NCBI RefSeq assembly: GCF_014332515.1
Contig: NZ_VFSD01000002.1
Span: forward strand, 310,001-374,000
Origin: Pontibacter beigongshangensis
GTDB lineage: Bacteria; Bacteroidota; Bacteroidia; Cytophagales; Hymenobacteraceae
Length of the DNA stretch: 64,000 nt
Direction of reading: 5' to 3'
Position 1 is the first letter of the stretch. Each line of letters starts with the position of its first letter. Positions 8,208 through 42,335 of the stretch are shown here, in pieces. The notes beneath the pieces are model-generated. The model did no database searches and was not told the origin of the DNA. It worked only from the letters and a program-made list of their open reading frames with translations. A program made the translations under genes and the position numbers.

Positions 8208-9314
8208 ATGTACTCAGAGTTTTATAACGTGGAGCTGGACAGGATACGCTATTCTTTGGTTTGGGAAGACAGCAACACCCTGTATAAAGCACTGGACATT
8301 AGGCCCGCTGACCACCTGCTAATCATTACATCAGCCGGCTGCAACGTGCTCAACGCGCTACTTAAAGCCCCTGCCCAGATCACGGCTATCGACCTGAACC
8401 CGGTCCAGAACAGGCTGCTGCTGCTCAAAAAGCACCTTATCCTGCATTACGAATACCCTGTCTTCCGGGCACTTCTGGGCCTGGATGGTGCAGCGAGTGT
8501 CAGAAAAACCTGGCAACAAGTGGCTCCTACGCTACCCGAAGACATGCTCCGCTACTGGACACCCTTCTTCCAGAACCACCCCAACGGGCTACTGGCCGCA
8601 GGAAAACTGGAAACATACCTCCATATCTTTTACCATACGCTAAGCAAGCAGCTGAAGGAAAAGCTACAGAAATTAATAACATTTGATAAGGTAACCGAAC
8701 AGTACGACTTCTTTCTGAATGAGCTGCACCTAACGCCATTCCAGCAGCAGTTCACCGATTATTTCGACGAGGCGAACCTGAGCAAAGGCCGCGACCCGAA
8801 GCTGTTTAAGTATGCTGAAGAATCAGGAGGCGCCACATTTTATAAACGGCTGGTGGCGCAGGTGGCGTCGGTGCCGGTAAAGCAGAACTTCTTTTTCCGT
8901 TTTTTCTTTTTCGGACCAACAAACATACCGCCACACCTCCTGCCGCCGTGCTACCAGGAGCAACATTACGAGCAACTACGGCAGCAACTACACAAGCTAA
9001 AGGTAGTAAATGCCGAAGCCATCGATTATCTGCTGTCGGAGGAAGGGCGGCAGCTAAACAAGGTCAGCTTGTCGAACATTTTTGAGTATACCAGTCCCGA
9101 AGAATTTGAGCATGTATACCACAAGCTGTTCTCAGACCCGAACCGAAACCTCCGCATGGTTTTCTGGAACCTGTTGCAGGAGCAGGGAGCCGGTTTACCC
9201 TCCGACCCGTGGTTGAACAGTTCACTTTCAGAAGCGCTTACGGCCACAGATGCCTGTTTTTATTTCAGGAATGTGCGGGTGCAGGCAAATTCATTTTCAG
9301 CTGTAAAAGGCTGA
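8208..9314 (+). CDS. DUF3419/BtaA-like S-adenosylmethionine:diacylglycerol aminocarboxypropyltransferase family protein
   Basis: A 368-aa protein with the BtaA-type start: YSLVWEDSNTLYKAL, then the SAM-binding stretch LLIITSAGCNVLNALL (about 53-68) and AIDLNPVQNRLLLLKKH. BtaA moves the aminocarboxypropyl group of SAM onto diacylglycerol, giving the homoserine head group of betaine lipids. BtaB then N-methylates it. No BtaB-like methyltransferase is present here, so an unmethylated or otherwise decorated product, or another acceptor, is possible. It lies 145 bp downstream of the OleC-like ligase on the same strand. The family assignment is good; the exact reaction is inferred. Confidence 0.78.
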   Translation: MYSEFYNVELDRIRYSLVWEDSNTLYKALDIRPADHLLIITSAGCNVLNALLKAPAQITAIDLNPVQNRLLLLKKHLILHYEYPVFRALLGLDGAASVRKTWQQVAPTLPEDMLRYWTPFFQNHPNGLLAAGKLETYLHIFYHTLSKQLKEKLQKLITFDKVTEQYDFFLNELHLTPFQQQFTDYFDEANLSKGRDPKLFKYAEESGGATFYKRLVAQVASVPVKQNFFFRFFFFGPTNIPPHLLPPCYQEQHYEQLRQQLHKLKVVNAEAIDYLLSEEGRQLNKVSLSNIFEYTSPEEFEHVYHKLFSDPNRNLRMVFWNLLQEQGAGLPSDPWLNSSLSEALTATDACFYFRNVRVQANSFSAVKG

Positions 9315-30672: not shown

Positions 30673-31047
30673 TTGATTCTACGGTACAACCTCTTTACAA
30701 TAATGTGGGCAGCAGTGATCATGATCACCACACTGCTGCCCTCTACTGCTCTGCCATCCACCTCGGCCTGGGATCTTCTTACCTTCGATTCGTTTGCCCA
30801 CATCTTTTTGTTTGCCGTGCTCACTTTCCTGATGATTGTGGGGCTCAAAAAACAATTTACCAATACAAAGCTACGGCACTACGCCATCCGGTACTCCCTG
30901 CTGATCTGCACCCTGTATGGCATTGGTATTGAGCTGCTCCAGGAGTTTGTTGTGTACGGGCGCCAGGGCGATATTATTGATGTCATCAGCAACACGATCG
31001 GCTGCCTGGCAGGCATCCTTGCCTTTAAATGGATTTACAAGGTTTAG
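30673..31047 (+). CDS. VanZ-like membrane protein
   Basis: A 124-aa protein with four predicted helices. The VanZ-like pattern includes the N-terminal helix ending TTLLPS, FDSFAHIFLFAVLTF and the polar motif IELLQEFVVYGRQGDIIDVISNTIG. The molecular role of the family is not settled; VanZ itself gives low teicoplanin resistance. TTG at 30673 is used because it supplies the first helix. An internal ATG near 30703 would remove part of it. It lies 24 bp after gcvH and is probably cotranscribed. Confidence 0.78.
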   Translation: MILRYNLFTIMWAAVIMITTLLPSTALPSTSAWDLLTFDSFAHIFLFAVLTFLMIVGLKKQFTNTKLRHYAIRYSLLICTLYGIGIELLQEFVVYGRQGDIIDVISNTIGCLAGILAFKWIYKV

Positions 31048-31111
31048 TGTTTTAAGGTAAAGGGCAGTAGATAAAACTGCTGTTTATTCGGAGCAGCAGC
31101 AGCAGGAGAAA

Positions 31112-31143
31112 CCTCCGGAGGGGCTTTTTGATTAGCAAAATTT
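31112..31143 (+). repeat. CCTCCGGAGG element, copy 10
   Basis: CCTCCGGAGGGGC then TTTTTGATTAGCAAAATTT, 65 bp after the VanZ-like stop in sense orientation, preceded by a GCAGCAGCAGCAGGAG run. Confidence 0.85.
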
Positions 31144-31230
31144 GCCTCAGGGCACAGCTCCGGAGCGCATTGCCCTGCCAATGGGTTTTCCTTTACGCCA
31201 TAAACCACACCATCCTACCAAACAAAAAAC

Positions 31231-32505
31231 TTGAACCAACAAACCCTCCTGCTCCTCCTCTTCCTGATCACCAGCTTCCCGGCCAGGGCGCAGGACATGA
31301 GCAGGGTACGCCAGACCATCGACACGCTCTGCTCCCCCACCATGCACGGCCGGGGGTACATCTTTGAAGGCGACACCAAAGCGGCCAGCTATATCCGGGC
31401 ACGTTTTGAGGCTGCAGGGCTCCAGCCTATTGGCTTCAGCTATTACCAACCCTTCTTCCTGCCCGTAAACCGGATTACCCACACGCCACAGCTGCAGCCA
31501 GATGGCAAACGGCTGAATCCAGGAACAGATTTTGTGGCACAGGCAGCCTCTCCTTCCGGCCAAGGAAAAGCTAAAGTACTACCTCTCGATACACTTATTT
31601 TTACTGATGCTACAGCAGCAAGCCGGTTTTTTAATCAGGACTTCCAAAACAAAGCGCTTGTTTACAGCCGGCAACACCAGCCACTGCTGCAAAAATTACC
31701 TTCAGCTTATCAGCAGCAGCTACAGCGTGCCAAAGCCCATATTGTGCTGCAGCCCAAAGCACTTATGACCTCCGTGGCACGGCAGCAGAGCGGGGCTCCT
31801 GTTTTTGAGGCATTGGCCACTGCCTGGCCCAACAAGGTAAAAAAGGTAAAATTTGATGTTACCGCCAATTTCGAGCCCGCTTACCAGACTCAGAATGTGA
31901 TAGCGGTAATAGAGGGCAGTATCGAACCAGACTCATTCCTGGTTTTTACGGCGCATTACGATCATTTAGGCGGTCAGGGCAAAGACGTTTACTTTCCGGG
32001 TGCCAACGACAATGCCAGCGGCACGGCCATGCTGCTGGAGTTAGCCGCCCACTACAGCAAACCAGAAAACAAACCGGCTTATAGTATCGCCTTTATGGCG
32101 TTTGCCGCCGAGGAGGCTGGCTTGGTGGGCTCCTTCTTTTACACTCAAAACCCGCTTTTCCCGCTTAGCCAGATCAAGTTCCTGGTAAACCTGGATTTGC
32201 TTGGCACCGGAGACGACGGCCTGATGGCTGTGAATGGCAGCATTCATCCGGAGGAGTTCAGGTTGCTAACAGACCTGAACAAGGCAGGCAATTACCTGCC
32301 CCAGATCCGGAGCCGGGGCAAAGCAGCCAACTCCGACCATTACCCCTTCTCCGAAAAAGGTGTTCCGGCCTTCTTCTTCTATACCCTTGGCGGCACCACC
32401 GCCTACCATAATGTGCACGACAGGCCGGAGCAACTGCCCCTTACCCGATTCCCGGAAGTATTTAAGCTCCTTACAGATTTTGCGGCCGCTCTGCAGACCG
32501 AATAA
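31231..32505 (+). CDS. M28-family zinc aminopeptidase, secreted
   Basis: A 424-aa protein with a signal peptide (about 1-21) and an M28 catalytic domain (about 215-420). The zinc ligands and acid are visible in order: AHYDHLG (His), GANDNASGTA (Asp), AAEEAGLVGS (Glu-Glu), NLDLLG (Asp) and YHNVHD (His). The segment before it (about 100-210) resembles the PA-like insert region of such enzymes. It likely trims peptides in the periplasm or outside the cell. TTG at 31231 gives the signal peptide; no ATG fits. It is a single gene. Confidence 0.9.
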   Translation: MNQQTLLLLLFLITSFPARAQDMSRVRQTIDTLCSPTMHGRGYIFEGDTKAASYIRARFEAAGLQPIGFSYYQPFFLPVNRITHTPQLQPDGKRLNPGTDFVAQAASPSGQGKAKVLPLDTLIFTDATAASRFFNQDFQNKALVYSRQHQPLLQKLPSAYQQQLQRAKAHIVLQPKALMTSVARQQSGAPVFEALATAWPNKVKKVKFDVTANFEPAYQTQNVIAVIEGSIEPDSFLVFTAHYDHLGGQGKDVYFPGANDNASGTAMLLELAAHYSKPENKPAYSIAFMAFAAEEAGLVGSFFYTQNPLFPLSQIKFLVNLDLLGTGDDGLMAVNGSIHPEEFRLLTDLNKAGNYLPQIRSRGKAANSDHYPFSEKGVPAFFFYTLGGTTAYHNVHDRPEQLPLTRFPEVFKLLTDFAAALQTE

Positions 32506-33031
32506 GATGATTATTAAGCAGTTAGCCATTAGGCACCGATGGTGCCGTGTAGAAGAGAGGAAAGGAGCTATGGCAGCAGAATGCTCCGGAGGGGTGTTTT
32601 TATTCGAATAATCGCCGCCGGAGAGGCCACGTTGGTTTTATAGCAGCCCCTTGCCTGCCAAACCGGAACACAAACACAGGTTAAACGGAGGCCCGGTAAT
32701 TTGCCGAATCCTATGCTGCAAATTACTTTAATTCGACACAAACGAAATATAACTGTCTGTAAAACAATTACATACTTTACTTTAAAAGAACGATTGTTAG
32801 CTTAAAATCATGGCTTAAGTCTAAAATAAATCGTATACTAATTGAAGTGAATCCAAATACAAGACTGCGGCTGTTACCAGTTCGAAGAAAAGGTTGAAAA
32901 AACAGCAGACATGCTACCTATCAGATAAAAAGACAAAATAAAAATATTTTAGGACTCCGGAGCAACTTTCAGATTGCTCGCACCATCTATAGAGTAACAA
33001 ATAAATTTTTTAACCCTAAAATCATATCGCC
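32506..33031. other. 526-bp region upstream of the first 54-aa micropeptide gene
   Basis: It contains a short stem GGCACC-GAT-GGTGCC (32532-32546), repeat copy 11 and AT-rich sequence. No clear -7 box for the micropeptide gene is found. Confidence 0.5.
32583..32612 (+). repeat. CCTCCGGAGG element, copy 11
   Basis: GCTCCGGAGGGGTG then TTTTTATTCGAATAAT, 78 bp after the M28 stop in sense orientation. Confidence 0.8.
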
Positions 33032-33196
33032 ATGAAAATCATCACTTTATTATGCGCCATAGTTCTGATGTTTGTCGGCATTATTAAAAAAACAGCAGAC
33101 GATGTAAATGAGATCGCTGTAAGAACCGAGATGAAGCAATATCCTAATTTGCTGCCTACAGTAGAGGTAATAGCAAAACGTTTGCCTAAGTCTTAA
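33032..33196 (+). CDS. 54-aa membrane micropeptide, paralogue A
   Basis: ATG to TAA encodes 54 residues: a hydrophobic N-terminal helix (about 3-18, starting MKII and ending GIIKK) and a polar part with TADD, EIAVRTE, KQYPNLLPT and AKRLP. A near copy lies at 39376-39540 and shares 42 of 54 residues. Most codons differ only at the third base and all changes are mild, which is what selection on the protein leaves behind. The KK after the helix suggests an inner-membrane peptide with a cytosolic tail. I do not recognise the family, and no function can be given. Confidence 0.75.
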   Translation: MKIITLLCAIVLMFVGIIKKTADDVNEIAVRTEMKQYPNLLPTVEVIAKRLPKS

Positions 33197-33940
33197 TACC
33201 GTTCCTGTTTACGGAAGTTAGAACGAGTACTACTTCCGCAACCAGATCACCGATTTTTCTGCTCCTGCTCCTTCCCCGGCCTCAGCCCTGCCTGTTACCA
33301 ATCCTTTTTAATCAGCCATCAGGCTCAACAAAATTACTGCCACTCCGCCAACCACAGCCCATAGCCCTGTGTGCCCCCGGCACATAGCTGAAGATGAATT
33401 TATTTCGGGGCAGGTTGCTGATGATCATTGCGTTATATAATAATATAATTATTTTGTGCTGAGGGATTTCATCAGGGCAGGAAAGCAAATTCAGGTTTAG
33501 CTACCACCGTACTCTATTTCCCTGCCATGGTTGAAAACATTCCATTCTAAAATACAATCCTGTTTTAGTGGAGTGGTGGCTCATCATTGCCATCGGATAC
33601 CAAGCACTAAAATGGAGGTTCGTTAGGCTTTCGCTGGTCAGGGAATAAGCTACAGGAGCTACCAGGAAAAGGCTGTTGCCCGGTACTCAGCCTGACGATT
33701 TTTTGTTGAGGAAAGGTGCCACCGAAAAACAAAAATGCCCTGTTTCTTTTGGCATCTCCATCCTTTATCAAGAAGGGCAGGCATTTCTGTCTAAAAAGCT
33801 AAAAGCCCCCGTAGCCATTAGGCTACGGGGGCTTTTAAAATAACTGGTCCAGTTGGTGCAGCAGACAGTTTTGCTGGCCTGTAGCTGCACAGGATTTATC
33901 TATTCATAACGGAACCTTCTGTTTTCGGCATGGCCTGAAA
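33197..33940. other. 744-bp region between micropeptide A and the SGNH lipoprotein gene
   Basis: Apart from the terminator at 33801-33836 and an imperfect stem (ATGCC/GGCAT near 33735-33760), I see no gene, RNA or repeat. Confidence 0.5.
33801..33836. terminator. Strong bidirectional intrinsic terminator
   Basis: A perfect 16-bp stem AAAAGCCCCCGTAGCC/GGCTACGGGGGCTTTT with an ATTA loop. It ends the minus-strand fadL-like/SGNH transcript, about 105 bp past the stop, and can also stop plus-strand transcription. Confidence 0.9.
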
Positions 33941-35353
33941 CTAAGGCAGCAGCACGGCACGGTATTGTGTCTCATCCACAGTCGGGATTCTGGCACCGTA
34001 TTTCGAGTTGATGGCTTTTATCATTTCATTGGCGATAAAAGCATACCCCCTTGGCGTAGGATGCACCCCGTCGAGTGAAAACAGGTTGCCAGTAATAAAG
34101 GCTGGAGAATAGGAGACCCCATCGCGCGAAAAACCACTGGCGACGCTCTTAAAGTAAGCATCGGAATCGAACAGGGCCAGTCCTTTGGCATCAGCCACCG
34201 ACTTGATAATGGTGTTATAATCATTCGTAGCCGCCGTTACGTTTGCCTGCTCGGCTGCATCCAGCACCAGTGCGCTTGGCAGCGGGTTCCTGTCTGACAG
34301 ACCAAACATCTGGGTAGTATCTATTTGGTATGTTGCCAGCAGGGCCACTAAAGTGCCTCTGATAACAAGGGCATTCTGACTGGGGCTTACCTGCTTGGCC
34401 AGATCTCGCCAATACAAGCCAGTTGGCTGGCCAACCAGCGTGGCATAAGGCGAGGCAGTAAGCGGGATAAGCACGCCATCCTGAGGCGTGTTTATTTGCG
34501 AAGGCGCAAACGAGATACGGCTGGCTCCTGCACCAGTAATGGCAAAAAGCCTTGTAATAGCCGGATTCAGGCCTAACAGTTGCCTTATAGATGCTCCGAC
34601 CGTGGTGAAGAACGGGAGAGAAGTCACATTCGGAATAGTAGCCACTATGCCTTTCTGGCCCTCAGCTGTCAACGCATTCACCATATCGGAGAAGCGGACA
34701 TCAAAGGTGTTGGTAGGCGTAATGTTATACACCGGATCGCTGGAGGCCCCACCGGAAGTAGCATATCCTAACACATCGTTGCTGCCCAGCCACATGCTGA
34801 AAAACGTGTGGTCGGCGGCCTGCACGCGCTGCAGGTAGGTCTGGTTTGCGTCGTTTTCCGGCGTAATACGCTCAAAGTAGCGGTTGCCCTGCGCGCCTCC
34901 GTAGCCGGGTGTCGTGATGTCGGCCAATCTTATATCCGGAATGCCGAAGTTCTGAACAGGGCCTGTGTACTTGGCAAAGCGCCCCGCCTGGTTGGTGGCC
35001 AGCTTATCGGTAACGGGCACAATAGTAGGCGCACCCTGGGCCGAAAGCCCGGCAAGGCGCAGGTAGCCGGAACCGTTTGCCTGCTCTTCGGAGAACAGCG
35101 GCTGCGCAAACTCGCCGCCCCCAACCGATCTGAACTGCTGTGCTAATATAGCGGGGTATGAGTTAAGCTGTCCTTCGCGGTACAGGCCTCTGTCGCCATA
35201 GCCAGCCGTAAGGGAGTTGCCTACGGCTATGTAGGTAGAGAAATCAGCCTCGCCGGGACTGGTGGTGGGTACATCTATTTCCGGTTCGCAACTGGCAAGA
35301 AATATACCGGCAGCAAGAGCCAGCATGCCTGGTTTATAGAAGAATTTTTTCAT
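33941..35353 (-). CDS. SGNH/GDSL-family hydrolase lipoprotein
   Basis: A 470-aa lipoprotein: signal with lipobox FLASC (Cys22), then an SGNH hydrolase. Block I is GNSLTAG (Ser47), block III is LGSNDVLG and the catalytic Asp-His block is DGVHPTPRGYAFIANEM near the C-terminus. It likely hydrolyses esters at the outer membrane. ATG 35353 is chosen because the signal peptide starts there; an upstream in-frame ATG at 35374 overlaps the previous gene and adds a non-signal stretch. It lies 17 bp after the FadL-like gene, so the pair is probably an operon for hydrolysis and uptake of a lipid or ester (inference). Confidence 0.85.
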   Translation of the reverse strand: MKKFFYKPGMLALAAGIFLASCEPEIDVPTTSPGEADFSTYIAVGNSLTAGYGDRGLYREGQLNSYPAILAQQFRSVGGGEFAQPLFSEEQANGSGYLRLAGLSAQGAPTIVPVTDKLATNQAGRFAKYTGPVQNFGIPDIRLADITTPGYGGAQGNRYFERITPENDANQTYLQRVQAADHTFFSMWLGSNDVLGYATSGGASSDPVYNITPTNTFDVRFSDMVNALTAEGQKGIVATIPNVTSLPFFTTVGASIRQLLGLNPAITRLFAITGAGASRISFAPSQINTPQDGVLIPLTASPYATLVGQPTGLYWRDLAKQVSPSQNALVIRGTLVALLATYQIDTTQMFGLSDRNPLPSALVLDAAEQANVTAATNDYNTIIKSVADAKGLALFDSDAYFKSVASGFSRDGVSYSPAFITGNLFSLDGVHPTPRGYAFIANEMIKAINSKYGARIPTVDETQYRAVLLP

Positions 35354-35370
35354 ATTCAGGATGTAGCTAA

Positions 35371-36612
35371 TCAAAATTTATAGTTCAGGGCAATACCAGG
35401 AATGTAAGCAATAGACTTGTAAGTGCCTGCTACGCCGCCAGACAGGTCAGAGGCATCGGTCCTTTTCTTTTTGTTGATGTACAGGAAAGACGCATCTACG
35501 CTCATGTCTTCAGACAGTTTGTAGCCAAAACCTACAGACACGCCACGAGAATCTGAGTCAGGCGTCTCGGGGGTGAGGTAGCCCTCCTGCACCGGGGTGC
35601 CATCGTAGTAACCGCCTGCCCGCAGGGCAAAGGCGTCAGATACCTTATATTCAGCGCCAACGCGGTAGATATAGGCATCTTCGTAGTTCCGGGCATTTTC
35701 TGCAAAATTGCTTCCGTTCACATCTTGGCTATAGTCAAAGCGCAGGCTCTTGTAAGCGCTCCAGCCTACATGGCTTACATCTACGGCAATGGTCAGGTCT
35801 TCGGATGGCATAAATCCTGCACCGAAGGTAAGGGTAGCCGGCAGAGGCAGCGTGGCATCGAACTCGGTGCCTGCCGGGAAGCGCCCTGCAATGGCCGGCG
35901 AGGTAGGCAGGTTCGAGAACATCACATCGCCGCCGTCTACTTTCATGTCTACTTTAGAGCGGTAGCTCAACCCAAACGACAGTTGCTCAGAAGGCTTAAA
36001 GAAAATGCCTGCGTTAAAGCCGATGCCGTTTGCTTTGCCATCCAGTTCTGCCTTGCCGTAAGCCCCTTCGGAGTTCTGGAGCGGAATATTGCGTTGCAGG
36101 TTCACACCACCTACCGCATACACAAAGCCGGCGCCGATGCCCAGCTGGTCGGTGATCTGGTAGCTAAGCGTTGGCTGAATAAAAATGGCCTGTAACGAAA
36201 GCTCTGACAAGCCAAAGCGCCCGTTCCAGTCGTTGCCCCAGTTCACAGTGCTGCCAAAAGGTGTATACACGCCCAAACCTGCCTTAAGCCTGTCGTTGAT
36301 GCCAAACACGCCGTACACGTGAAAAGGAGTGCCCAGCGGGTTATCGGCTTTGGCAGTTGCTCCGCTTGGCTCCGGCGCCCGGTACGCGATTTTGGAAATG
36401 ATACCGGAAGCGCCGATGGTTACGCCATTCTCCCGCAGGAAACTCATAGCACCCGGGTTAAAGAAGATACTGGAGGTACCGGTAGTGATGCCTGTGCCCG
36501 TATGGCCCATCCCGATCTGGCGCTGACTGGCCAGGTTTACCTGGTAGCCTCCTGCCATAGCCGCCCCCGATAGCAAAGAGCCACCGATCAAAGCTAAAAT
36601 TTTTCGTTTCAT
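35371..36612 (-). CDS. FadL/OmpP1-family outer-membrane transporter
   Basis: A 413-aa barrel protein with a signal peptide (about 1-20) and the FadL N-terminal hatch pattern GGYQVNLASQRQIGMGHTGTG, TSSIFFNPGAMSFL. Many alternating strands follow, and it ends ALNYKF with a C-terminal aromatic. FadL proteins pass long-chain fatty acids or hydrophobic compounds across the outer membrane. It is first in a two-gene unit with the SGNH lipoprotein. Confidence 0.9.
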   Translation of the reverse strand: MKRKILALIGGSLLSGAAMAGGYQVNLASQRQIGMGHTGTGITTGTSSIFFNPGAMSFLRENGVTIGASGIISKIAYRAPEPSGATAKADNPLGTPFHVYGVFGINDRLKAGLGVYTPFGSTVNWGNDWNGRFGLSELSLQAIFIQPTLSYQITDQLGIGAGFVYAVGGVNLQRNIPLQNSEGAYGKAELDGKANGIGFNAGIFFKPSEQLSFGLSYRSKVDMKVDGGDVMFSNLPTSPAIAGRFPAGTEFDATLPLPATLTFGAGFMPSEDLTIAVDVSHVGWSAYKSLRFDYSQDVNGSNFAENARNYEDAYIYRVGAEYKVSDAFALRAGGYYDGTPVQEGYLTPETPDSDSRGVSVGFGYKLSEDMSVDASFLYINKKKRTDASDLSGGVAGTYKSIAYIPGIALNYKF

Positions 36613-37215
36613 AAAAGTTGTTTTGATTTTTTTGATAGCATTGGGTGTTATTCAACAATTTCCTACTTAAAACTGCTACTTATTGTTATTATAATTTGCA
36701 GTAAAAAAATCAGAATAATTTAAAAGGTTAATACGCGAAGACTAAGCAGAAGCAAATCAATATTTAAATAGATGAATATTAACTGTGTAGCTAGCAAACC
36801 TACTCAATATTTTTTAAGTGTTGCCATATTTTTCCTGCTAATTATTTTTCCCGGACTCTGCCAATGCCTCTGCCACTAGATCATCAGAAATGCATTAATT
36901 TATCTGTCCGGCAATGGTGCACCAACCGCCTGGTGTTTAGCCAACTAATTTAAGCGCCTGGAAACAAAAAGACCTGGTGAGGCGATAAGGTATATAAATT
37001 ACCTGGTAACGCATTTCTGCCATGGTTTTGCCGCACCAGAGCAATTTATTTGAATTTTGCCCTTAACACGTTCTGCCATTCGGTGTAGTGTCAAAACTTT
37101 TTAGTTAAGAAGCTGCGGGTGCATGCCTTTATTTCGTTCCAAAAAACTTTCTGAGCATGCGGCATTATCTTTAACCTCCGCAATCCGTTAAACTACTCTC
37201 AAAAGAAAAACTGAG
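36613..37215. other. 603-bp divergent region between the FadL-like and TrxR-like genes
   Basis: AT-rich. CAAACCTA at 36795-36802 is a minus-strand -7 match (TAGGTTTG) but has no good -33 partner. No gene or repeat copy is seen. Confidence 0.4.
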
Positions 37216-38145
37216 ATGTACGATGTAATAATTATAGGTGGCGGACCGGCTGGCCTGAACGCTGCCATGGTGCTGGGGCGCTGCAGGCGCAGGGTCCTTT
37301 TGTTTGATACAGGTAAGCCCCGCAACCGGTGGTCTCACAGCATGAACGGGTTTATCTCGCGTGATGGCATTAACCCGCAGGAGTTTTTGGAACTGGGAAG
37401 GGCCGAACTTCAGAAATACAAGGTTGAAGTTGTGTGCAAGCTTGTGAAAACGGCCACCTACAGCAAAGGGCATTTTGTGGTGAACGACGACGAGGGCACC
37501 GTATATACCTCGCACAAGCTATTGCTGGCCACTGGCTTAAAAGACAAGTTGCCGAACCTACCTGGCCTGGAAGAACTGTACGGCAAAAGCGTGCACCACT
37601 GCCAGTACTGCGATGGCTGGGAGTCGAGGGATAAGGCGATTGCTGTTTATGGGCAAGGCAGGCGGGGAGTAGGGCAGTCGCTTGCCATGAAAACCTGGAG
37701 CGACAGCGTGACACTCTATACCGATGGCACCAACAAACTGACGCAGAGCGACTGGGACAAACTGAAGCTGAATGGCATAGCTGTTTGTACTGATAAAATT
37801 GCCCGCCTGGAAGGCGAAGACGGCAAACTGCAGCGCATTGTCCTGCAAAACGGAGAAGTGCAGGAGCAGCAGGCTATGTTCTTCAACACCGGCACCAAAC
37901 AGCAGTGCGACCTGGGAACACAGTTAGGCTGTGAGTTTACAAGCAAAGGTGTAATAAAAACCCGCAGGCTGCAGAAATCAAATATTCCGGGGCTTTTTGT
38001 AGCCGGAGATGCCGCCCGCGATGTGCAGATGGTTATTGTTGCTGCTGCCGAAGGCATGAAAGCAGGCGTAGCCATCAACATGGAGTTGGAGCAGCTCTAC
38101 CTGAAGCGTGAGCCGCAGGCCGGCAACAAGCCTGTGGCTGTATAG
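37216..38145 (+). CDS. Thioredoxin-reductase-like NAD(P)/FAD oxidoreductase
   Basis: A 309-aa two-dinucleotide-binding flavoprotein. FAD site: IIIGGGPAGLNAAMVLGR (about 5-22). Redox pair: Cys129 and Cys132 in HHCQYCDGWE. C-terminal FAD motif: GLFVAGDAARDVQMVIVAAAEG. The second Rossmann loop reads YGQGRRGVGQ, altered from the usual GxGxxA. The YCDGWE form is typical of the TrxR-like subgroup that is not the housekeeping TrxB and includes dithiol oxidases of secondary metabolism. The partner thiol is unknown. It is convergent with the cyanophycinase-like gene, with a 50-bp gap. Confidence 0.85.
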   Translation: MYDVIIIGGGPAGLNAAMVLGRCRRRVLLFDTGKPRNRWSHSMNGFISRDGINPQEFLELGRAELQKYKVEVVCKLVKTATYSKGHFVVNDDEGTVYTSHKLLLATGLKDKLPNLPGLEELYGKSVHHCQYCDGWESRDKAIAVYGQGRRGVGQSLAMKTWSDSVTLYTDGTNKLTQSDWDKLKLNGIAVCTDKIARLEGEDGKLQRIVLQNGEVQEQQAMFFNTGTKQQCDLGTQLGCEFTSKGVIKTRRLQKSNIPGLFVAGDAARDVQMVIVAAAEGMKAGVAINMELEQLYLKREPQAGNKPVAV

Positions 38146-38195
38146 CATACTAAAGGCCGGGGAGCTGTGACACAAGGATGTGCCTGACCTTAATT

Positions 38196-39026
38196 TTACA
38201 GGGAAAGAGGCGCATCCTGACTTACCAGACCAGTGTCTGAAACTGCCTGGAACAGGTGCTCTTTCAGGCAATAGCGGTAACCTCTCACCAGCAGGTGCAT
38301 GATCAGGTGCTCTACGGCTATGGGCTCGTTTTCCTCTACCTGCCGCGTGTTCGAGAACCGCACCTTGCTGGCATCAATGATCGTGACCACTCCCGTGCCA
38401 AACACTTCTACCTGATCGCCGCCTTTTATGATAATGCCTGTTTCCTCGCTCAAACCGATACCGGTATACTCCTGGTCGTGTGCCACGGCATGTGCCAGGC
38501 GACCAAAGCGGCCACGTTCAGCAAAATGGGTATCGATGTATACCTGCCGTATAAAGCCAAAGCCCTGCGTTGTCTTCATCTCGCCTTTTATGAGCGAGTA
38601 ATGTCCATATCCATCATAGATCATCCTGTCAGACATAACGGCTGCCCCGGCACTGGTGCCGGCTATTATAATATCGTCCTCGATATACCGGCGCTGCATA
38701 ATCTCCAGAAGCCTGGTTCCGCCCAGGAAACTGGCTAAGCGCACCTGATCGCCTCCCGTAAAAAATATAACCTCGGCTTCCTGTATCGCCTTCAGATTTA
38801 GGGAAGTGTCTGCATCGTTTGATTCGTCGATATGCAGGAGCATCACGTTGCTGCAGCCAAACTCCTCAAAGGCAGCTTTGTAGGCATTGCCTGAGTCCTC
38901 TACCTCTGTGGCAGCCGTAGCTATAACTACGATATGCGACTGCGCACTGCAAATCTGCGAGCGGATCAGCTTCAGCAACCCATCGTCGTCTCCCCCGCCT
39001 AGAGCTATTAATCTGCCTTTAATCAT
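38196..39026 (-). CDS. Cyanophycinase-like S51 peptidase
   Basis: A 276-aa serine peptidase from ATG 39026 (MIKGRLIALGGGDDDG); an earlier ATG at 39140 adds 38 residues with no family match. The nucleophile is Ser125 in AGTSAGAAVMS. FFTGGDQVRLASFLGGT and THFAERGRFGRL complete the S51 pattern. Cyanophycinase cuts cyanophycin to Asp-Arg dipeptides. No cyanophycin synthetase or isoaspartyl dipeptidase gene is in the window, so the substrate might be another beta-linked peptide. Confidence 0.85.
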   Translation of the reverse strand: MIKGRLIALGGGDDDGLLKLIRSQICSAQSHIVVIATAATEVEDSGNAYKAAFEEFGCSNVMLLHIDESNDADTSLNLKAIQEAEVIFFTGGDQVRLASFLGGTRLLEIMQRRYIEDDIIIAGTSAGAAVMSDRMIYDGYGHYSLIKGEMKTTQGFGFIRQVYIDTHFAERGRFGRLAHAVAHDQEYTGIGLSEETGIIIKGGDQVEVFGTGVVTIIDASKVRFSNTRQVEENEPIAVEHLIMHLLVRGYRYCLKEHLFQAVSDTGLVSQDAPLSL

Positions 39027-39375
39027 ATGCCTCCCTGAGTTATTGTAGTAAAAATGTATGTTATACTGAAGGTAAGGCTTTAGAGTTAATAATAATAACC
39101 TTGGGACCTTCTTCTCAGGCAACCCGTGTGGCATTTGCACGCTGCCTGCAGGCTACTGTTCGTACCCGGACAGTAGCCTGTTCGGTTATGTACACAGCAA
39201 TGGTGCCGGCAGGCCCGGAAATGCCTTTTGCGAGCCGGTAAGGGGCACAACAGATATTGGCACAGATCATGTATTACACAAAACACGCTCACGCTGATCA
39301 GCCATGCCCTTATAACCAGCTGATTTTCAAAACAATGAACTCAAAACAAAAACCTGAATCAAAAAAAATAAAGCC
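39027..39375. other. 349-bp region upstream of the cyanophycinase-like gene and of micropeptide B
   Basis: It holds a perfect hairpin at 39149-39180 and AT-rich sequence before the micropeptide ATG. No -7 box is evident for either gene. Confidence 0.5.
39149..39180. repeat. 11-bp perfect hairpin without a T-tract
   Basis: CAGGCTACTGT (39149-39159), a 10-nt loop and ACAGTAGCCTG (39170-39180). No U-run follows on either strand, so it is more likely a structured leader or operator than an intrinsic terminator. Confidence 0.6.
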
Positions 39376-39540
39376 ATGAAAATTATCATCTTGTTAGTAG
39401 CCATTCTTATAATGCTTGCCGGTATTATCAAAAAAACAGCCGATGACGTGCAGGAAATTGCCATCAGAACAGAGCTGAAACAATATCCGAACTTGCTGCC
39501 TACCATAGAGGTTGTCGCAAAGCGCCTGCCCCGTTCCTGA
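39376..39540 (+). CDS. 54-aa membrane micropeptide, paralogue B
   Basis: Same length and plan as the gene at 33032-33196: hydrophobic helix (MKIIILLVAILIMLAG), KKTADD, EIAIRTELKQYPNLLPT and a basic AKRLPRS end. The differences from paralogue A are I/V/L/M-type swaps plus K/R and N/Q. The surrounding DNA is not alike except for a short A-rich stretch before the ATG, so only the reading frame is conserved. The following composite repeat begins about 60 bp after the stop. Unknown family. Confidence 0.75.
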   Translation: MKIIILLVAILIMLAGIIKKTADDVQEIAIRTELKQYPNLLPTIEVVAKRLPRS

Positions 39541-39913
39541 TCTGATTCCCCAGTGAAGCACCGCAAAGCCAGGCACACCCTCGCAAAACCTGCCGCAGCA
39601 GAACCTCCGGAGAAGCGGGGTAATGTGCTGATGTGCTAATTTGACAATGGTTGATTGTTGAATGGTTGATTTGAAAATTTGGAGATGAAGGGTGCACCTT
39701 ACCACATCTCTTAACTCTTTAAAAGGCCTTATGCCCTGAGTTGTGCTACGTGCGAGTATCGGGCTACTGAAATCCTGTTTCCTGTTGTGCTCCTGAGCCG
39801 CCAAAAGCCAGCCAATTTTTTTCTGGGCTATCCTGCTACAGCCATCTCAAAATTTATGCTACTTTTGCCTCTGGAAGCGAGATGCCAGGTGAGATTAATT
39901 TTTTGCAGACCAT
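39541..39913. other. Composite 3' repeat, copy C1, and promoter region
   Basis: From 39604 to about 39800 the region runs through the composite modules in sense orientation for micropeptide B: CCTCCGGAG, TAATGTGCTGATGTGCTAAT, TTGACAATGGTTGATTG, AATTTGGAGAT, GGTGCACC, CTCTTAACTC, GCCCTGAGT and a degenerate TACGTGCGAGTATC. The end lacks the AATTATT arm. A -7 box for the next gene follows at 39860. Confidence 0.65.
39860..39867 (+). promoter_or_regulatory. -7 box candidate for the 137-aa gene
   Basis: TACTTTTG matches TAnnTTTG, 46 bp before the ATG at 39914. The -33 region is weak (TTCTG). Confidence 0.4.
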
Positions 39914-40327
39914 ATGGGAAAAATACTGAGGCTCAATGAATACAATCATAGTGCCTTCCTCTATAAAGCGCAGCAGTTAGTGCTGAATCTGCTAACGCCT
40001 GCCAGGCATATAGCGGCGCAGCCTCCTGCACCTGAGCTATGCAACACCACCGGCACACTTGCCACAAAGACTGCCTATAGCCAGGAAACCCTGGAGAAAC
40101 TGGAGCTTTCTGCCTTGCTTGCAAGTGCTGCTCAACCTGCCAGATTATATGATTTATCTAAACTGCTGACGCTCGAAGAGCAAAGTAAAGCGTTTTCATT
40201 TGATCTTGGCGAGGGCATGGCCCGGAAGGGACTGGCCGAGACCTGCTTCAGGGCAGGCAGGATATGCATAAAAATAACGCCGGAAGGCCTGAATTACTTA
40301 AAAGAACAGGAAAGCGAACATCTATAA
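39914..40327 (+). CDS. Hypothetical protein, 137 aa
   Basis: No family recognised. The N-terminus is MGKILRLNEYNHSAFLYKAQ, the middle is Ala/Leu/Pro-rich (about 30-90) and the end is GMARKGLAETCFRAGRICIKITPEGLNYLKEQE, which looks like a small alpha/beta or winged-helix-like end. There is no signal peptide or membrane helix. It has a plausible own promoter and a strong terminator 150 bp downstream, which supports a real single-gene unit. Confidence 0.6.
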   Translation: MGKILRLNEYNHSAFLYKAQQLVLNLLTPARHIAAQPPAPELCNTTGTLATKTAYSQETLEKLELSALLASAAQPARLYDLSKLLTLEEQSKAFSFDLGEGMARKGLAETCFRAGRICIKITPEGLNYLKEQESEHL

Positions 40328-40478
40328 ACCCTAAGACTTTAGCACAGCTAATACCCCTCCTGCTGGGCTTTGGCAGGCGCGACGGCCCCCACCGAAGCGG
40401 CAAAGCGCAGTAGCAACAAGTAAAAACAAGCTTAAAAACAGGAATTATACTGTCGCAAAAGTCATTTGTAGCTTTCCA

Positions 40479-40513
40479 CAGCAGTCTGGCCCCCAGCCGG
40501 ACTGCTGTATTTT
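40479..40513 (+). terminator. Intrinsic terminator of the 137-aa gene
   Basis: CAGCAGTC (40479-40486) pairs with GACTGCTG (40500-40507), extended inwards by GGC/GCC, and is followed by TATTTT. Confidence 0.75.
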
Positions 40514-40591
40514 AAGCCCCTGCCGGTTGCCACAGCACGTGCTCCGGCAGGCTCCTGCCGCAGCTCTTAGCAAATGTCAGGTGCCTCGTTC

Positions 40592-40623
40592 AATTATTCT
40601 AATCAAAACGCCCCTCCGGAGGC
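40592..40623 (-). repeat. CCTCCGGAGG element, copy 12
   Basis: AATTATTCTAATCAAAACG then CCCCTCCGGAGGC. It is the far end of composite repeat C2 and in sense orientation for the gene ending at 40820. Confidence 0.85.
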
Positions 40624-40819
40624 TTTTTCAGGACACAAGACGCAGGATACAAGTATCAAGACATTCGTAGCACGATACTCGTATCACGTAGCATGACTCA
40701 GGGCACAAGACCTTGTAACGAATTAAGAGTTTTCAAAGCTTGCTCTGGCAATTCATTTCCAGATCTTCAAATCTCCAAATTGAAAAATTAGCACATCAGC
40801 ACATTAATCCATTAGCACA

Positions 40820-41494
40820 TTACTCCTTCTTTCTGAAAATATCGAGCGGACCGGACTTTTTCTCCTCCTTGGGCGGCTCCTTCTTTTTGAAGATATCCCG
40901 AAGGCCAGATTTTTCTTCTTCCTGTGGCGGTTCCTCCTTCTTTTTAAAGATGTCCAGTAAGCCGGATTTCTCTTCCTGCTTCTGGTTTTTATTCTTTTTT
41001 GTGTCTTCTTCTTTGTTGCCGAATGGCCACAGGCTTTTTTTCTTCTTTTTCTCAGGCAGGATAACGTACCGGATAGATATGCCTGTAGACAAGGCCACCC
41101 AGTCTTCGTGGTTGATGTGGAAAGCCGGTTTTATGTCCGCAGAAAGCAGGATGGGCAGGCCGTTTACTTTATACTCCACCCCCAGAATAGCATCCAGCCC
41201 GGTAAATGTGCCGTGGTCTTTCAGGTGCCCGATATGGCCTCCGGCACCTACATAATAGTTAAGGCGACGGCCGAGTATAGGCCGGTGCCATTCATAGAGC
41301 CCGGTGGCGCTAACATCGCGGGTGCCCACTGCAAAAATGCCTTCTATGGTCGATTTCTCGAATACCCGCTGCTGCACCGTGAGCCCAAGCCGCTCACCAT
41401 CTAACCGAATACCGGCAGCCGTACGGTATACCTGCGCCTGACTAACATAGGCTGCTCCTATCAGCAGGAGGCCTATCCAAAAGCTTTTCTTCAT
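40820..41494 (-). CDS. Secreted hypothetical protein with four C-terminal KSG-x-x-DIF-KKE repeats
   Basis: A 224-aa protein with a signal peptide (about 1-20) and a beta-rich region (about 22-145) that looks like a small outer-membrane or periplasmic barrel: RLGLTVQQRVFEKSTIEGIF, ATGLYEWHRPILG, YYVGAGGHIGH. A charged tail follows. The tail has four related units: KKSLWPFGNKEE, EKSGLLDIFKKKEE, EKSGLRDIFKKKEP and KKSGPLDIFRKKE, alternating with Pro/Glu linkers. The repeat is visible in the DNA too (about 54-63 bp period). The tail may be a binding or anchoring segment. The family is not recognised. Confidence 0.7.
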   Translation of the reverse strand: MKKSFWIGLLLIGAAYVSQAQVYRTAAGIRLDGERLGLTVQQRVFEKSTIEGIFAVGTRDVSATGLYEWHRPILGRRLNYYVGAGGHIGHLKDHGTFTGLDAILGVEYKVNGLPILLSADIKPAFHINHEDWVALSTGISIRYVILPEKKKKKSLWPFGNKEEDTKKNKNQKQEEKSGLLDIFKKKEEPPQEEEKSGLRDIFKKKEPPKEEKKSGPLDIFRKKE

Positions 41495-41918
41495 GCTATA
41501 AAAATTCTACTGCTGCCCCTGCAAATACCTTACCTAATGCGGTGCCATGCGCCCTGTGCGGCAGGCGAAGTATCTGTTTTATAGGAAAGGGCATGAGTAT
41601 CAGGGTGTAAGTTTCTTTTTGTACTGTTTTTGTGAAGAGGCCGTACATGATCAGCACCAACTGGCCAGTCCCCCTTCCGGTAAATTATTTGAATCAAAAC
41701 GCCCCTCCGGAGGCAAAAAGAGACACAAGACGTAAGACACAGGTATCAGGATTTTAGTAGGCCGATACTCGTATCAGGTAGCACAACTCAGGGCTCAAGC
41801 CCGTTTAAAGAGTTAAGAGATATGGTAAGGTGCACCATGCATTTCCAAATCTCCGAATTTTCAAATCAACCATTCAGCAATAAACAATCAACCATTGTCA
41901 AATTAGCACATCAGCACA
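41495..41918. other. 424-bp region with composite 3' repeat, copy C3
   Basis: From 41683 to 41918 the composite modules follow each other up to the arfB stop: CCTCCGGAGG element, GACACAAGACGTAAGACAC, CCGATACTCGTATCAGG, CAACTCAGGGCTCAAG, GTTAAGAG, GGTGCACC, TTCCAAATCTCC, TTCAAATCAACCATTCAGC and TTAGCACATCAGCACATTA. The left part (41495-41682) has nothing I can name. Confidence 0.75.
41683..41714 (-). repeat. CCTCCGGAGG element, copy 13
   Basis: AATTATTTGAATCAAAACG then CCCCTCCGGAGGC, the far end of composite C3, sense for arfB. Confidence 0.85.
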
Positions 41919-42335
41919 TTACTCTGCATCACCCCTGAACCGGCCACGACCAGACTTTTTCTCGCTTTGCCGGCGCTTGCTTTCCAGCCGTTGCTTTACG
42001 GAGCCGTAGGTGGGTTTGGTTGGCCTGCGCTTTTTCTGTTTCGTAAGTGCCTGGCGCAGCAGCTCATAAAATTTGCGGATGCACTCCTCCTTGTTCTGCA
42101 GTTGGCTCCGCTCCGCCTGGCACACCACCTGCAGGAACCCGTCGCTGGTAATGCGGTTGGCCAGCTTTTCGTGCACCAAGGCTTTTTCCTCTTCTGAGAG
42201 CAGGCCGGAGGATGCCACATGAAACCGCAGCTCCGCTTTGCTGGACACCTTGTTCACATTTTGTCCGCCAGCGCCTCCGCTACGGGAGGCCTGAAACTCC
42301 AGTTCCCTGGCAAAGTCTCTTTCACCTAAACGCAT
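41919..42335 (-). CDS. arfB: Alternative ribosome-rescue factor ArfB (peptidyl-tRNA hydrolase)
   Basis: A 138-aa protein with the release-factor GGQ motif at 23-25 (SGGAGGQNVNKV) and a Lys/Arg-rich C-terminal tail (RRPTKPTYGSVKQRLESKRRQSEKKSGRG) that enters the empty mRNA channel. It frees ribosomes stalled on truncated mRNA by hydrolysing peptidyl-tRNA. Length and layout match ArfB (YaeJ). A composite repeat directly follows its stop. Confidence 0.94.
   Translation of the reverse strand: MRLGERDFARELEFQASRSGGAGGQNVNKVSSKAELRFHVASSGLLSEEEKALVHEKLANRITSDGFLQVVCQAERSQLQNKEECIRKFYELLRQALTKQKKRRPTKPTYGSVKQRLESKRRQSEKKSGRGRFRGDAE

Follow-up and report, generated by a model that had tools for sequence, protein, structure and literature searches.

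What are the two similar short reading frames that lie 6.3 kb apart in the 64,000-nucleotide stretch of Pontibacter beigongshangensis DNA analysed here (the window), and what might their products do? An initial annotation, made from the letters of the sequence, took them for two copies of a membrane micropeptide that may belong to an overlooked small-protein family.

33032..33196, + strand: copy A (P0001), 54-aa small protein, ATG to stop, adjoining a gene for an M28 peptidase
39376..39540, + strand: copy B (P0002), 54-aa small protein, ATG to stop, at the ancestral genus-wide site

Both frames are exactly as described there, with 42 of 54 residues identical (pairwise BLASTP, E 1e-25), and a whole-genome search found them to be the sole two copies in the 5.75-Mb assembly. 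The 45 nucleotide differences between them are distributed 11/5/29 over codon positions 1/2/3, in line with the remark that many of their codons differ at the third base only; NG86 estimates are dN 0.146 and dS 2.72, the latter saturated. The surrounding DNA is unlike, as had also been stated, and the flanks share nothing beyond A-rich leaders 5' of the ATG.

The same pattern extends over the whole family. Differences at codon positions 1, 2 and 3 number 2704, 1574 and 5226 over 183 pairs, and the median dN/dS of the 57 pairs with dS <1.5 is 0.22, well below 1 as the initial annotation had expected of genuine genes. It had also reckoned that indels and stops in homologues would speak against a family. 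Every one of the 50 genomes from the genus has matches free of internal stops, with one apparent exception: in genome G030 (locus L051, near position 9143) the usual start is missing from the first tandem copy and a TGA is reported inside its leader, so that this copy may be broken or affected by a sequencing error. Both frames of the window are intact genes under purifying selection, and the existence of the small-protein family itself is near certain. That they might be chance open reading frames or part of a conserved non-coding repeat could be argued from their shortness and from a dispersed DNA repeat family nearby. The repeats fall outside the frames, however, and neither the third-position excess and low dN/dS nor the stop-free matches throughout the genus fit such an origin, whose probability is negligible and which we regard as refuted in practice.

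The dispersed repeat is intergenic, about 240 bp long, with a palindromic CCTCCGGAGG core. It occupies 39609-39785 (- strand), 40587-40826 (+ strand) and 41678-41933 (+ strand) in the window, where its core AAAACGCCCCTCCGGAGGC is also found at 177, 16486, 31111, 57907 and 62126. At least 52 places genome-wide match it at E 1e-5 or better, and its 5' part and its 3' part (CAAATTAGCACATCAGCACATTA) are also found separately.

Next, we examined how far the family reaches. A single-sequence search detected it in each of the 50 genomes searched from the genus (Pontibacter as broadly defined by GTDB, a group that includes Pontibacter qinzhouensis and Botryobacter ruber), 44 of them having two copies and six having one. 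The same search found it in none of 150 genomes from five other genera of the same taxonomic family. The 49-row profile of the small-protein family, A1, retrieved no further full-length relative from 291 genomes of the order or from 395 genomes of the phylum. Full-length relatives are restricted to the genus.

Profile matches restricted to the leader led to two additional groups. One, in sister genus g27, is a 57-70-aa protein whose leader reads MKxIILLFAMCIGSGLALKDALSG, encoded at the same chromosomal place, with a peptidase S51 gene a few kilobases upstream and an M56-like gene downstream (loci L133-L135). Its leader half alone is recognisable, the leader being its most conserved part and the tail not conserved. 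The other is a paralogue ending in LLDTVEITxxAP (type sequences), present in 25 of 28 genomes of the genus, mostly at another locus, and missing from the window genome, Botryobacter and G007. In profile comparisons, A1 aligned at both ends with A2 (97%, E 5e-11) and over the leader only with A3 (95.5%, E 1.5e-8). The family thus predates the genus, and its middle part changes fast. The initial annotation had proposed that a lack of homologues in other Cytophagales would speak against it; the family passes narrowly, since full-length members are confined to the genus and, at the corresponding locus of a sister genus, only the leader half can be recognised.

Comparison with collections of known families gave no name. 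No curated match above cut-off was obtained for the family in Pfam or NCBIfam, and there was no significant match among PHROG, PADLOC or PDB sequences, nothing significant in plasmid records and no match to curated toxin families; Rfam gave no match in 31000-42000. Matches to DUF5305, DUF2555, E2 and spanin were discarded as noise. The nearest likeness is to DUF6520 (PF20130), itself of unknown function, which one of 49 members matches weakly at a marginal E-value (0.0098), whereas the window proteins do not match it. The literature search, with the terms used, returned nothing relevant on small TonB-binding proteins or on Pontibacter small proteins. The family is unnamed in curated libraries, and, being present throughout the genus under purifying selection, deserves to be called overlooked.

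Chromosomal localization of the family turned out to be well conserved. The genes needed to follow it in the window are:

31231..32505, + strand: peptidase M28, upstream of copy A, also adjoining the orthologue of A in P. qinzhouensis
33941..35374, - strand: GDSL/SGNH lipase, with which the conserved SGNH-OmpP1-TrxR-S51 block lying between A and B starts
38196..39140, - strand: peptidase S51 (cyanophycinase-like; Pfam PF03575, E 1e-22), the divergent upstream neighbour of the genus-wide site, identified also by synteny
40820..41494, - strand: 224-aa outer-membrane-protein-like gene without Pfam match, the convergent downstream neighbour, conserved in synteny

In most genomes of the genus a tandem pair of copies, separated by some 50-70 bp, precedes a third short open reading frame, which has the same leader and lacks the PNLLP tail. 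This array is flanked by the divergent S51 gene and the convergent outer-membrane-protein-like gene, within the order SGNH lipase, OmpP1/FadL, thioredoxin-reductase-like, S51, (sterol-desaturase-like), family, OMP-like, ArfB-like, M50/BlaI/M56; neighbour genes without a Pfam call were named by eye. Copy B occupies this genus-wide site between the S51 and OMP-like genes. Copy A adjoins the M28 peptidase gene downstream of an SprA-like gene, and one copy of P. qinzhouensis (locus L070) is placed likewise. The block that comprises the M28 gene and copy A is joined, in the window, to the SGNH-OmpP1-TrxR-S51 block; elsewhere this position is taken by DNA polymerase I or by two c17 genes. The two copies lie so near each other because this rearrangement brought the blocks together.

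In the tree, copy A clusters with its counterpart from the matching site of P. qinzhouensis (98/87), and a single clade (98/92) contains all six copies of the window genome, P. qinzhouensis and Botryobacter. On this tree the pair in the window stems from a duplication inside its own small clade. A recent segmental duplication was considered and rejected, the flanks being unlike and the copies old (dS saturated). An ancient genus-wide split into first and second paralogues would require several changes on the tree (seven for the first, six for the second), which is built on only 54 columns. Copies have dispersed independently in G004, G008 and G118. Three species (L061, L064 and L067) carry a second family array at a different conserved locus, with a downstream partner of the LLDTVEI type in place of the usual third open reading frame, as if the subfamilies exchanged places. 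In the OMP-like neighbour of copy B, three imperfect direct repeats of 54-57 nt (40820-40987) encode a lysine/glutamate-rich C-terminal tail (KKEEPPQEEEKSGLRDIFKK).

The peptide itself has a clear anatomy, a hydrophobic N-terminal helix, a charged helix and an extended conserved tail PNLLPxVE[VI]VAxR, with the consensus MKIIILLFAxxxGFGAxxKKSADDxKEIxxRxELxxYxxYPNLLPxVEIVAxRx. Within the 49-row alignment M1, N39 and L41 are invariant and P38, P42 and V44 nearly so, conservation peaking over residues 1-20 and from residue 36 onward. The sequence fits the proposed membrane location: a single hydrophobic stretch of about 16 residues follows MK, and AlphaFold2 run on A1 predicts a helix over residues 2-35 that gives way to an extended tail (mean pLDDT 77.6, pTM 0.35). 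The hydrophobic core is followed by KK, with a mean net charge of +1.5 over 15 residues. By a crude rule, a candidate signal-peptidase site (small residues at -3/-1, near residues 14-21) occurs in 45 of 49 members and in all members of the other two groups; the putative sites of the window copies (VGIIKK, AGIIKK) are poor. The N-terminus is predicted to be either a membrane anchor or a signal peptide.

The conserved tail resembles the TonB box of TonB-dependent transporters:

33152..33184, + strand: TonB-box-like tail of A, LPTVEVIAKRL (residues 41-51)
39496..39528, + strand: TonB-box-like tail of B, LPTIEVVAKRL (residues 41-51)

This genome encodes 61 plug domains versus five TonB C-terminal domains. 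TonB boxes were read from the residues just ahead of this domain in 50 of the 61 transporters that contain it. An example of the SusC type is LDEVVVVGYG, and examples from other transporters are LGTVEVVAQQ, LKEVEVVGNR, LREVEVVSQR, LQEVEVVVNR and FGAVEVVGGR; the family tail LPTVEVIAKR is close to this second kind, sharing the strand pattern L-x-x-V-E-V-V-[AG]-x-[RK] that precedes the plug (PF07715) in Bacteroidota. Scored with a matrix built from the transporters only, A and B rank first and second of the 219 small open reading frames of the window, and random 54-mers from neighbouring proteins attain the median score of the family in 0.96% of cases, shuffled tails in 0.05%, copy B alone standing at 2.6%, in a test that was post hoc, run after the motif had been noticed. 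The scores themselves have medians of 21 for transporter boxes versus 11 for the family. An earlier, SusC-dominated matrix had given a weaker result (P 0.02) and was replaced by this one, which covers more transporter types. Genome-wide, a degenerate DNA pattern that encodes [LF]Px[VI]E[VI]xA has only four occurrences; apart from A and B it falls in a periplasmic-binding sensor protein (FPDIEIVA, away from the C-terminus) and in a frame that makes no evident sense.

There are also differences from a transporter box. The family has neither plug nor barrel (no Pfam plug match, and a length of only 54 aa), so its members are not TonB-dependent transporters; the motif lies at the C-terminus; and none of the transporter boxes read has a counterpart of the near-invariant proline P42 (of LP). 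The motif is missing from the third member of the tandem array and from the relative in the sister genus. The resemblance is suggestive rather than conclusive.

Our best single guess, a tentative one that we consider possible rather than probable, is that the peptide is anchored in the membrane or exported and offers a TonB-box strand to TonB. The hydrophobic N-terminus would put the product into or across the inner membrane, leaving the charged helix and the extended tail in the periplasm, where the tail could act as a TonB box and join the TonB C-terminal domain by strand addition. If so, the tail peptide PNLLPTVEVVAKR would bind TonB C-terminal domains, and a peptide occupying TonB would tune or buffer the competition of many transporters for few TonB proteins. 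Two tandem genes and a third relative would supply dosage or differently tuned variants. This guess agrees with the presence of TonB machinery in the genome and with the paralogue of different middle part, which ends in LLDTVEIT and is aligned with the family at both ends. Against it, the KK after the hydrophobic stretch gives no clear preference for a periplasmic tail, and no TonB-system gene is found among the conserved neighbours.

Many known bacterial small proteins act as single-span subunits or regulators of membrane complexes, and the peptide might serve another complex of this sort (a transporter, respiratory enzyme or protease), its leader helix packing on the partner and its tail docking, with the TonB-box look a coincidence of short beta-strands. 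Summed over all conceivable partners, this has a substantial chance of being correct, though one short of even. The leader is common to all paralogue groups, beyond the needs of a generic signal peptide, and the sister genus preserves the leader half best and not the tail. In size, in the single hydrophobic N-terminal helix and in the short soluble tail the family is similar to regulators of the AcrZ, KdpF and MgtR kind; it differs from them in lacking curated-library similarity, in its restriction to one genus, in tandem arrangement and in a strongly conserved tail. Moreover, no membrane complex is conserved next to it, the neighbours being the S51 gene and an outer-membrane-like protein gene on the other strand, and the [LP/LD]xVE[VI] tails of two paralogue groups would be left unexplained.

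Removal of the leader could instead release a subfamily-specific mature peptide as a signal or antagonist. Tandem copies, a leader conserved across subfamilies with differing middle parts, and the -3/-1 small residues found by the crude test would suit this, but the conserved neighbourhood contains no dedicated exporter, maturase or receptor, the mature part is conserved genus-wide, unlike antagonistic peptides, and the cleavage sites of the window members are poor; we think it unlikely. Far less credible still is a type I toxin silenced by antisense RNA. Size, hydrophobic helix and tandem copies do recall toxins of the Ldr, Hok and Fst kind; yet the family is universal in the genus and kept at one place, its extramembrane part of 35 residues is strongly conserved, and Rfam (31000-42000) and curated toxin families returned no match.

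In kind, this is one more lineage-specific family of small membrane proteins, and only a role with TonB would add more to it. Taken further, the TonB-strand proposal would make the family an endogenous competitor for, or allocator of, TonB at the inner membrane or in the periplasm, regulating TonB-dependent uptake at the protein level; we offer this extension as a doubtful one. To our knowledge, no such TonB-box-presenting regulator is known. Bacteroidota possess dozens of TonB-dependent transporters per handful of TonB proteins, and for the management of this competition a small peptide that is kept universally and ends in a TonB-box-like tail would be a directly testable candidate. Even without a role in TonB function, every searched genome of the genus keeps, mostly at one place, a small-protein family that is not named in any of the curated libraries.
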